A program made the position numbers and the translations under genes. A stretch of 64,000 nt of DNA from Microbotryomycetes sp. JL201 (lineage: Eukaryota; Basidiomycota; Microbotryomycetes). The notes under the pieces were generated by a model. It had not been told where the DNA came from and made no database searches. It saw nothing but the letters and a program-made list of their open reading frames with translations. Location: contig JAQYUZ010000005.1 in NCBI GenBank assembly GCA_033819885.1, positions 434,001 through 498,000 of the forward strand, written 5' to 3'. Positions 37,179 to 41,062 of the stretch are shown here, in pieces (within the stretch, counting starts at the first letter, position 1; each line of letters starts with the position of its first letter).

Positions 37179-38778
37179 CTATCGAGCCTCGACTCCGATC
37201 CCGTCTACTACCTGAGCGACGACCTGGGCATGCAGCTCATTGACTTCTTCGTTTGACAAGCTCCTGCAGCGAGTGAAAGAGCGAGTCAACATCCTGCAGC
37301 TGAGCAGAACACAGTGTCGGGAGTCTTTACGAACCTGTCCATGGACCGGTAATTGAGTCTGTAGCAAACGCTGCGTCTCGATGTTGTCGGGTGCACAAAC
37401 TCATCGATCTGTTTGCTCGAAGCATCGTCGTCAGTTGATTTTTGCTGTCCATCAATACGCGCAAGAGTCACACCTTTTGCACGTCCTCGATCAAATCGCC
37501 CGCAACATCCCTGACCACCTCGCAGAATTCGTTCTCGTGAAACTGAGGCGGCGTCCAGAAACTGAAATCTTTATAACACTCGGGATATTTCGAGTAGGGT
37601 TTGAACGTTGATATCTGGCCGTCACTGAACTGAGAGATAAACCGAGGATCTTCAGACCAGAACAGGCGGATGTCGGGCACGCCAAACATGACCATGGCAA
37701 TGCGTTCAAGTCCCAGACCGAACGCCCAGCCATACTTGTCGGGCACATCTAGTAGAAAGAGGAGTAGAAGGGTGTGAAGCGGTCAGGATTCGGGAGGCGC
37801 TTCACTTGGGCTGATGTCATCGCTTACTCGAACGTTCCAAAGCTCGCTGGCGCACGACTCCACAGCCAAGAATTTCGAGCCATTTGCCATTGAACAATAC
37901 TTCTACTTCGTAGCTCGGTGCAGTCCAAGGAAAAGTCGCTTCGATCCACCGCACTTGTAGCGGCTCGTTCGCATCTTTTCCGACGCCGCCAAACAAGTTG
38001 AGGACCATCGAATTGAGGGAATTTTTGAGGTGGTCCGAAATGATGCGCGCCTCTTCGGAAGTGTGCTCGTCTTGTATCGGGTTGGTGGCGGTCGTGTCTC
38101 TCGTTGGGTCGGTAATGACAATGTTGGCCAAGTCTAACCGTTCCTTCATCAGCTCGTTCTCGCGCACAAACTTGTCGAGCCCATTGTCGCGCCTGCTGAC
38201 TACATTGCAAGCTTCTACTTGGTGGAAGACTGGATAGTGGCTTCTGTCAATCTCGTCGCGCCTGTACACGTCGCTCGTCAACAAGAAAGAGTCGAGGCCT
38301 TGCTTGAAATGCTGAACTTCGTGCGCGGATGTGTGTGTACGCAGCATGGTGTGCTTGTTGAGGTAGTACGAGTCCGTCAAGCTCCTGCCCGGGTGGTCTG
38401 GTGGGAAGCCTAGCTCGTCAAAGTTTTGCTCGACGGTAACGACGGGTGACAGTGTGTTGAGATGCACGAATGAGCTGAAGTGCGCCTCGATGCGTTGCCG
38501 TAGGATCGACAGCGGATGATTCGGCTTGAGATGCAAGTTGCGGCCAACCTTGGACAGGATTGTTGGCGTCACATTGGTCCACTCGTCTCTCTCGTACGTT
38601 TTGCCATCGACAGTAATGGTTTGTTGCGCCTGTAGATGGCGATGGGCCGAGTTGAGCCGAGCGATTCGATTGAAGAGCACGGGAGACGTACACTTGAGTG
38701 CAGCGATCGTTTCATCGGCCTGCACGTACATGCCAGTGGTCCTCTGTTCGCGCTTAGGCGCTGTAGCAGCGTCTTCAT
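37179..38778 (-). CDS. MSF1: Mitochondrial phenylalanyl-tRNA synthetase
   Basis: Exons 38692..38778, 37828..38629, 37474..37748, 37335..37408 and 37179..37263 give 440 residues, matching the monomeric mitochondrial enzyme. It charges mitochondrial tRNA-Phe. The first exon supplies a basic targeting sequence ([21 protein letters not shown]). Class II motifs: [20 protein letters not shown] (motif 2), and [26 protein letters not shown] (motif 3) in two consecutive stretches. The C-terminal anticodon-binding domain contains [17 protein letters not shown] and [21 protein letters not shown] start at 38731 would lose the targeting peptide and is less likely. Confidence 0.95.
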
Positions 38779-39149
38779 TGCTCGAGGCTAGGGTTGTCTA
38801 TTGTTCTCGGATTCAAGTTGCACGCGCCGACTATGCTGCGCACATCTGCTGGCAAATCCTCTGTTAGCAATCTTGCACGCTCAGATGAGTTCTTTAATTT
38901 GTTAACTCAGTTGAGGGCCTTTGCTTTCATTCGACAAACAAGCCTCCTGTTCAGTGGCGAGCAAAGACGCGCGCGTGCGCAGTGTTTCAGGCTTCACCAA
39001 GTCACCCTCGCAAACCAGGCTCGCTCGTCCGAGTCCACGGTCGGTCCTCGTTGCCCAAAGGATCCCCTCTAGGCTACCAGTGTTGCCACCCTCCGCTGTC
39101 CACGCGCGTATCTCGCCCGTGCCCACCCCGAGTGCCCGAACGGCCAGTC
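38779..39149. promoter_or_regulatory. Divergent intergenic region between MSF1 and the antizyme gene
   Basis: This 371-bp gap separates two oppositely transcribed genes and must hold both promoters. No TATA-like element stands out. Confidence 0.5.
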
Positions 39150-40451
39150 ATGGCGTCTAATTCATCACGTTCCAAAAAGTGGGCAGCCTCGGCCGTCCGA
39201 GCTTGCATCGATACAAACATGTGCTGACATCCGTCTCGCTCCCAGTCTCAGCCCCACGGCCGCCGGCAGGTCGATGAACGGGGCGTCGTTGGTTGTCGCC
39301 GGCAAGGGGGCTGCGCCCTCATCGTGCTCTACGTTGGGTGATCGTGAGTCGCCAGCCTGCTTCTCGTACAAGTTTTCACGCCGACTGCACCCGTGCCCGA
39401 CGCGCCCGTGAGCCGTGTCGGCCTTGTGCGGCGGTGCGCGGCGTCGGAACGTGCGCGTTCTTGGAACCCGAGAGAACAGGAGGCTGACCTCAGACCTGTG
39501 TGCTCTGCAGCGGGCCCACAGTGGCCCTGACATCGCTAATGCGAAAATGCCTGCCGACAAGATCGGAGGTGGGTGTGTGCATGTGACAGGTCAGTCCAAC
39601 AAGGCGCCGCTGCAACGAGTGCAACTGACTCTTGTTTTGACCAGATGCCGCACCTTATACCCAACCGCTTCCTCTTTCCGCTTCTAAACTTTCTTCTGCT
39701 TTGCACTCGATCCTTGGCTCGTCGCCTCAGTCTCCTGCCGAATCAAACGCGTCCTCGTCTTCTTCGTCGTCGTCGATCTTGTCTTCGCCTCCACCCGCCT
39801 ACCACGACGTCTACCCTCCTTCGTCACCGTCGACCGCCCCGACATCTCCTTCCGATACCTCATCCATCTCGTCAAAGAGCTCGTTCGGCCGTATCACCAA
39901 CAAGTGGCAAACAAGCTTGACTTCGCCTTTGCCGGTCAAGCCGTTGTTGACGGCGCGTACGTCCGACGATCGCATCACTGTCGTCGACATTCAAGCTCCT
40001 TGCGTCAAAGACAACGTGTTGGCCCGCTTGTTCCCTGCCTCGTCGCCGATTCACGATTTGAGTTCGACTGCGGTCGACTTGTCGGATGTTGTGCCTTCGT
40101 GGCAAGGTGCCGTCCTTGACAACGCGAGCTCTGGCTTGCGCACGCTCTACGTCATGTCGACATCGTCAATTGCGAACGACGTCAACCTGCGTGATGCCGT
40201 GTGCGGCGTGCTTGAGAAGGCAGAGGACGAATTTGGGGCGAACGGCGTCGTGATTGCACTTGACAAAAAGGCGGCCGACCTTGGTGAGTGGCGCGCGTGT
40301 CGCATGTGATACGAGTCGACTGTTTTGCTGACTCGACCTTGATTCTTTAGGCGAACTTGTTCACCAGCTTTGCTACGTTGGTGGCACCATCACCAATCAG
40401 CCGTTTGCGTCCGATCCTCGCTTTGTCCTGGTCGCGCTTGACTTGATGTGA
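39150..40451 (+). CDS. OAZ1: Ornithine decarboxylase antizyme, made by +1 programmed frameshift
   Basis: Exons 39150..39178, 39246..39343, 39511..39568, 39645..40283 and 40351..40451. ORF1 (48 codons) starts MASNSSRSKNLSP and ends CSTLGDPGPQWP at the TGA at 39528, resembling vertebrate ORF1 ends (CCSNLGPGPRWCS). Shifting +1 at CCC-TGA continues into GACATC and a 307-residue product. Its C-terminal domain fits antizyme: WQGAVLDNASSGLRTLYV, NLRDAVCGVLEKAEDEFGAN, GVVIALDKKAADLGELVH, QLCYVGGT and FVLVALDLM. Antizyme binds ornithine decarboxylase, sends it to the proteasome and inhibits polyamine uptake; polyamines raise the shift rate, closing a feedback loop. A Ser/Pro-rich linker separates the two parts. 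The exon joins that make ORF1 and ORF2 coherent were found independently of the shift. Confidence 0.9.
39525..39530 (+). other. Predicted +1 ribosomal frameshift site CCC-TGA
   Basis: ORF1 of the antizyme gene stops at TGA 39528..39530 directly after TGG CCC. Skipping the T puts the ribosome in the long second frame. Antizyme shift sites known from animals and fission yeast are mostly UCC-UGA, and GCG-UGA in budding yeast; a proline codon in this position is a variant. Confidence 0.8.
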
Positions 40452-41062
40452 ATTGCGATCGACTGGTGACGCTCGGCGACTGCTCGCGCTTTGATTTTCG
40501 GCAATCTTTTCTTTTCTTCTCGACGGCTCACAGAAAACACGGAAACCGAACAGAAAAAATGGAAGGGTCGGACTGTTTCTATTCTTTCACGGCGACAACA
40601 GCTGGTACGCTACATTTGGCGCACACGCACCAAGGATCCTGGGGATTTTTTTTTTTTTTTCGTTCTCAGGTTGCCTTTTTGCTTTTGTTAGTTGTGTGTA
40701 GCTTTTCTTCTGTTCTGTCCTTACTAGATATTGGCTTCCGTACGCAACTCGGTTGCTTTACTGCACAATCTCGTCGCCCGCAGCGATTTGGAGCCCTTGA
40801 AAGCGATGACCCGAAGCTTGTGAGCGAGCGTTGACGAGGCCTTGTTGTCGCGTCAGTCACACGCGCGCGCACGTGCATCTTTGCCAGCAGCGGCCGTGGG
40901 CGTCTTGGGCGGGGGCGCAGAGTGCCCCGTACGGTTATCGTCGTTGTCGCCTCGTTGTGGGCCCCGCAGCGCGCGCTCGTCGTGTCGGATCCGCAGCTCC
41001 AACCGCTCGTCAGACACGACAGCAGCACAGTTGCGCACCCGGCACAAGCTTCTGTCAGCACC
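40452..41062. other. Intergenic region, antizyme 3' end and next promoter
   Basis: No gene supported. It contains T-rich stretches around 40640..40720 and otherwise low-complexity frames. Confidence 0.5.

Follow-up and report, generated by a model that had tools for sequence, protein, structure and literature searches.

The five predicted exons between positions 39150 and 40451 on the plus strand of the window (the whole 64,000-nucleotide stretch analysed) look like a gene coding for antizyme, the protein that restrains polyamine production, and we regard the identification of this locus as an antizyme gene as very nearly certain. The reading we favour, at a probability of about 0.65, is that the antizyme is made through a +1 slip at the proline codon CCC, aided by the UGG codon that precedes it and by a two-stem RNA element that is completed when a 79-nt shift exon is spliced. 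Ribosomes would translate a 46-residue ORF1 as far as CCC, at which point UGA occupies the A site. Some of them would then slip by +1, reading CCC and then GAC, to yield a 312-residue antizyme that would bind ornithine decarboxylase. The slip would most likely be helped by the 5’ UGG codon and by a two-stem-loop RNA starting at the 19th base after UGA, and that RNA would be complete only once the 79-nt shift exon (39511-39589) had been joined to exon 4. This scheme takes in the predicted introns, above all the one with its donor at 39590, together with frameshifting, a polyamine response and decarboxylase binding, all of which we infer.

Gene structure and antizyme identity

The frames stay in phase across the predicted introns from ORF1 to a stop codon ending at 40451. 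The features of the gene model, with the basis of each, are as follows.

39150..39178 (+): exon 1, with the ORF1 start ATG at 39150; sequence and joint translation
39179..39251 (+): predicted intron 1, 73 nt, GTGGGC...CTCAG; phase-consistent GT-AG, branch-like CTGAC by eye
39252..39343 (+): exon 2, the remainder of ORF1 before the shift exon; open frame, junction ...STLGD / PGPQWP
39344..39510 (+): predicted intron 2, 167 nt, GTGAGT...GCAG; consensus donor, phase-consistent, branch-like CTGAC by eye
39511..39589 (+): shift exon (exon 3), 79 nt preferred, or 58 nt if it runs to 39568; both ends in phase
39522..39524 (+): UGG (Trp) codon immediately 5’ of the shift codon; sequence
39525..39530 (+): shift site CCC_UGA (ORF1 stop), next base C; sequence and joint translation
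39545..39548 (+): AAAU adjoining stem 1; sequence and published basidiomycete motif
39549..39570 (+): stem-loop 1, putative 3’ stimulator; MFE fold, 3’ arm includes the GU (39569-39570) of the 58-nt donor
39571..39589 (+): 5’ arm of stem 2 and 7-nt loop GUGACAG; MFE fold
39590..39644 (+): predicted intron 3, 55 nt, CAG/GTCAGT...CCAG; placed from the RNA fold, in-phase donor, 76 nt if it starts at 39569
39645..39655 (+): 3’ arm of stem 2, the first bases of exon 4; pairs with exon 3 in spliced RNA
39645..40283 (+): exon 4, a linker rich in Ser and Pro plus the bulk of the antizyme domain; Pfam ODC_AZ, 15.1 bits alone
40284..40350 (+): predicted intron 4, 67 nt, GTGAGT...TTTAG; its removal brings the ODC_AZ score up to 26.3 bits, against 15.1 for exon 4 alone
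40351..40451 (+): exon 5, last part of the antizyme domain and TGA stop; joint translation and ODC_AZ score

With the predicted introns removed, ORF1 translates as MASNSSRSKNPTAAGRSMNGASLVVAGKGAAPSSCSTLGDPGPQWP and is closed by the UGA at 39528-39530. The first-pass annotation of this DNA had ORF1 ending in GDPGPQWP before its stop codon, and the predicted spliced sequence bears this out. A possible alternative in-frame start is the ATG at 39274 in exon 2. The donor of intron 1 pairs weakly with U1 in our predictions (-3.8 kcal/mol).

The protein predicted from the joined exons matches the Pfam ODC_AZ profile at 26.3 bits (E 7.1e-6; cut-off 24.2), a modest score that covers profile positions 20-90 of 114. 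The frame of exon 4 on its own stays under the cut-off, and the gain in score comes from joining exon 5 to exon 4 with intron 4 removed. The match upholds the antizyme identity put forward in the first-pass annotation; the homology of the downstream domain to antizyme, on which that proposal had been made to hang, is present.

A search of the genome for the ODC_AZ domain returned two places (2/2 candidates scored), which are two exons of this same gene; it is the one antizyme gene found in the genome. An ODC-type decarboxylase domain, which alone does not separate ornithine decarboxylase from related decarboxylases, occurs at one place, on a different contig from the antizyme gene. A whole-genome search with PF02100 gave 0 matches, but it also registered in 0/14 control genomes, so this null says nothing about absence. 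Compared by sequence with the predicted antizyme, no PDB chain matched at E <= 1; no relatives were found among plasmids by tblastn at E <= 0.1, and the 7 pattern stretches on viral contigs included 0 confirmed relatives. The divergent neighbour at 37817-38797 on the minus strand scores 105.8 bits against Pfam PF01409, the core of class II phenylalanyl-type tRNA synthetases.

The CCC_UGA shift site

In the predicted mRNA, a +1 shift from the CCC at 39525-39527, directly before the UGA at 39528-39530, gives access to a frame that stays open until the stop codon whose last base is 40451. The sequence and the predicted mRNA contain two ORFs that a +1 shift at the codon preceding UGA would join, and the earlier proposal of a shift at CCC-TGA into the antizyme domain is supported by sequence. 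The sequence likewise agrees with the earlier remark that the shift codon is proline rather than the usual UCC. CCC_UGA sites form a tiny minority of antizyme sites, with two known in an extensive survey, and replacing UCC_UGA by CCC_UGA gave less shifting in one mammalian cassette (PMC5009743, from the portion used here). Because that review reports rare CCC_UGA antizymes, the proline shift codon seen here is unusual, not new. The UGG codon before the shift codon has been reported in some basidiomycetes outside Agaricomycetes, and when UGG was placed in a mushroom mRNA, shifting was not lowered (PMC4505036, likewise in part).

The combination TGGNCCTGA-N14-AAAT, a motif we composed after the site and the published AAAU were known, occurs once in the window, at the shift site; the mean over 100 shuffles was 0.03, with a single occurrence in 3/100. 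Genome-wide there are 3 matches including the antizyme site, and 0 in a backwards control. The other two matches lie at loci L039 (contig G000:C23) and L041 (contig G000:C89).

It is also conceivable that an assembly base error, or decay of the gene, mimics a programmed frameshift, as an indel would likewise appear as a single-base offset between frames. The offset falls on UGG-CCC-UGA, which AAAU follows at the spacing to be expected, the remainder of the gene is open and the splice phases are consistent, and we hold this explanation to be very improbable.

In one long open frame, a gene candidate at most, CCC accounts for 12/94 proline codons, a count to which we give no weight. A proline tRNA pattern matched 5 places in the genome, with AGG at the anticodon place in 3, TGG in 1 and 1 unlike either; two of the three with AGG mirror each other on a single contig, and 2/5 of all places were inspected by eye. 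ARAGORN called none of these five as proline (arginine twice, undefined once, no call twice), and found no proline tRNA among 22/30 loci taken from a tRNA family search (63/386 candidates scored, at least 44 listed). Contig G000:C21 (218,852 bases) is palindrome-like: in a 6-kb sample, 5980/5980 bases equal the reverse complement of the mirror place, and the tRNA and pattern matches on this contig are mirror-paired. This could be an assembly fold-back or a genuine inverted duplication.

A putative stimulator that splicing would assemble

The 3’ RNA element described for basidiomycete antizymes begins 19 nt beyond the shift site; its stem 1 abuts AAAU, its loop 1 is variable, stem 2 directly adjoins stem 1 and loop 2 has 7 nt (PMC4505036, in the portion used here). 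By the same account AAAU is absolutely conserved in the examined basidiomycete antizymes that have the structure, as are six bases of loop 2. In RNA spliced from the donor at 39590, the first 72 nt 3’ of UGA fold at an MFE of -29.5 kcal/mol into a small hairpin and then a pair of stem-loops that follow one another directly, the second having a loop of 7 nt. The first base of stem 1 is 39549, which is the 19th base counted from the end of UGA and the 22nd from CCC, and the 19-nt match assumes the former count, the counting point not being explicit in that portion of PMC4505036. The 3’ arm of stem 2 sits in exon 4 and the rest of the element in exon 3, so splicing would assemble the stimulator. 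As judged from these folds, an mRNA spliced at 39590 would most likely carry the known basidiomycete stimulator, completed across the splice junction.

The layout test behind some of our controls was devised after the published description and the fold here were known, and there were three donors to choose from, so the following figures flatter the case for the stimulator somewhat: against 5000 dinucleotide shuffles the 54-nt element has a z of -3.2, with 25/5000 as stable, 258 opening at their first base with two adjacent stem-loops, and 17 of these also having a 7-nt second loop; a 77-nt stretch has a z of -3.5, with 1/200 shuffles as stable; and among 2433 UGA-anchored unspliced stretches on both strands of the window, 47 form adjacent stem-loops with a 7-nt second loop in 5, 10 are as stable, 16 have AAAU in place (the shift site included) and 0 combine all three. 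In a 356-nt mRNA context the predicted pair probabilities are 0.49-0.55 for stem 1, which would be about half populated, and 0.56-0.98 for stem 2.

The small hairpin (UCGC-UAAU-GCGA, 39533-39544) is predicted two bases 3’ of UGA, ahead of AAAU; the portion of PMC4505036 used here describes no hairpin between the shift site and AAAU. An Rfam search of the unspliced region 38900-40700 gave a single match, whose 14.2 bits fall short of the gathering score (38) and which we take as chance. Among titles and abstract openings, with few subscription papers, we found nothing on splicing across the basidiomycete antizyme stimulator.

The 3’ end of the shift exon

Nine GT sites lie between UGA and the acceptor of intron 3, and three of them are in phase, at 39569, 39575 and 39590. 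The donor at 39590 (CAG/GTCAGT) is 21 nt downstream of 39569 and gives an exon of 79 nt, an intron 3 of 55 nt and 7 additional residues (GGCVHVT). Stem 1 abuts AAAU (39545-39548) only in models with the donor at 39590 or 39575. Splicing at 39575 also leaves two adjacent stems (-22.7 kcal/mol), from a poor donor. When 39569 is used, the spliced RNA after UGA folds at -9.8 kcal/mol, the adjacent stem-loops are gone and the 54 nt have a z of +0.76. On this modelling the shift exon is probably 79 nt, not 58 nt. The first-pass annotation had placed a 58-nt shift exon between two introns; the phase-consistent GT-AG introns on both sides stand, and the end at 39568 probably gives way to the donor at 39590, which explains the site better.

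The main competitor, which we consider unlikely though well ahead of the other alternatives, keeps the exon end at 39568 and supposes that +1 shifting needs no two-stem RNA. Its donor (GAG/GTGGGT) is in phase, and among the three in-phase donors it is predicted to pair most strongly with U1, at -9.5 kcal/mol against -7.5 kcal/mol for 39590. There is also precedent: of 55 basidiomycete antizyme sequences gathered in PMC4505036, 54 of them aligned 3’ of the site, 4 from Tremellomycetes are reported in the portion used here to be without the structure, so a basidiomycete antizyme can do without it. A 58-nt model, however, would leave both AAAU and the stable, published-type fold to coincidence. 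The donor at 39569 is, moreover, less open than that at 39590 in local folds of 60/80/120 nt (mean unpaired 0.30/0.20/0.16 against 0.67/0.54/0.36), although a 201-nt fold of the pre-mRNA leaves the GU at 39590 almost fully paired (0.0 and 0.01 unpaired) and the one at 39569 likewise.

A survey of the window for introns by motif was uninformative, with 8 real against 9 control candidates. Among its donors GTCAGT appeared 16 times in the real and 5 times in the reversed sequence and GTGGGT 1 and 0 times, with 62 and 11 copies of these hexamers in the window; these candidate counts were left unused because the reversed control does not preserve hexamer frequencies.

Splice variants and mRNA fate

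Exon 3 is 1 mod 3 at 79 nt and at 58 nt alike, so an exon 2-exon 4 junction gives one open frame through the domain. Across 470 combinations of donors, acceptors and starts, 16 yield one continuous frame into the domain, and 4/16 use the consensus donor at 39344. These four are two patterns with two start codons each, namely plain skipping of the shift exon, or use of a weak acceptor at 39568 together with the donor at 39590. The frame arithmetic behind the first-pass suggestion that splicing could bypass the shift is therefore sound, and such a bypass is, from the sequence, possible but unproven. It would be a stronger claim that the shift exon is often skipped to give a constitutive one-frame antizyme, with the shift isoform regulated or minor. 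The open frame through the domain under either exon length is what speaks for this, but in-frame skipping is expected by exon length alone in one case in three, and it would require a 301-nt intron and remove conserved-looking signals. We regard it as improbable.

Retention of intron 1 would lead to a stop after 25 aa. If intron 2 were retained, the ORF1 frame would enter it and stop after 62 aa, and retention of intron 3 would leave the ORF1 stop unchanged. The distance from UGA to the exon 3/4 junction is 59 nt with the 79-nt exon or 38 nt with the 58-nt exon, and another 639 nt separate that junction from the exon 4/5 junction. As UGA lies ahead of exon junctions, mRNA on which no shift occurs might be degraded by nonsense-mediated decay. 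In Drosophila this pathway targets the antizyme mRNA (PMC1756896, in part).

It is tempting to view the donors at 39569 and 39590 as a switch between stimulator-less and stimulator-bearing mRNAs, with splice choice setting the gain of antizyme autoregulation. Splicing at 39569 would produce nearly the same protein, 7 residues shorter, without the stimulator, and the GU of that donor lies inside stem 1. The choice might perhaps be sensed through RNA fold and polyamines. We consider a switch of this kind doubtful.

Implications

With this locus, antizyme recoding gains a further example of the rare CCC_UGA site. If the donor at 39590 is right, the recoding signal would be completed only by splicing and, for that reason, would escape a scan made on uninterrupted genomic sequence. 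A possible link between splice-site choice and frameshift efficiency becomes directly testable.

Comparison with known antizymes

Our comparison with other fungal antizymes is based on published papers, used in part. With basidiomycete antizyme mRNAs the locus shares two ORFs in +1 register and, given the donor at 39590, AAAU abutting stem 1 and two adjacent stem-loops. Loop 2 would also share the 7-nt length, a likeness in length and not in base identity. In having UGG before its shift codon the gene resembles some non-Agaricomycete basidiomycetes (PMC4505036). Together these features make it probable that the genome is a basidiomycete one. All 34/34 Agaricomycetes and the one Dacrymycete, in contrast, have UUU_UGA and a conserved peptide before the site (PMC4505036), which in Ganoderma reads YYYSTTFSGG (PMC9604110). 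Here the site is CCC_UGA and ORF1 ends in APSSCSTLGDPGPQWP, in which no such peptide is seen when compared by eye with Ganoderma.

With vertebrate antizyme 1 the predicted gene shares a short ORF1, a Gly-Pro-rich end with Trp, an XCC_UGA site and the ODC_AZ domain. The vertebrate shift codon is Ser UCC and its Trp is one codon further upstream, whereas here Trp adjoins CCC. The 3’ element of vertebrate antizyme 1 is a pseudoknot close to the shift site; the element here would instead consist of predicted stems from +19. Where antizyme mRNAs have pseudoknots, these lie 3 nt 3’ of the shift site, and human ORF1 ends in NLGPGPRWCS, where a single codon separates W from the shift codon (PMC5009743, in part). 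The first-pass view that the end of ORF1 mirrors that of vertebrates therefore holds for the Gly-Pro stretch with its Trp and fails for the position of Trp, which here directly precedes the shift codon. The shift site itself is identical to that of the CCC_UGA antizymes reported in PMC5009743.
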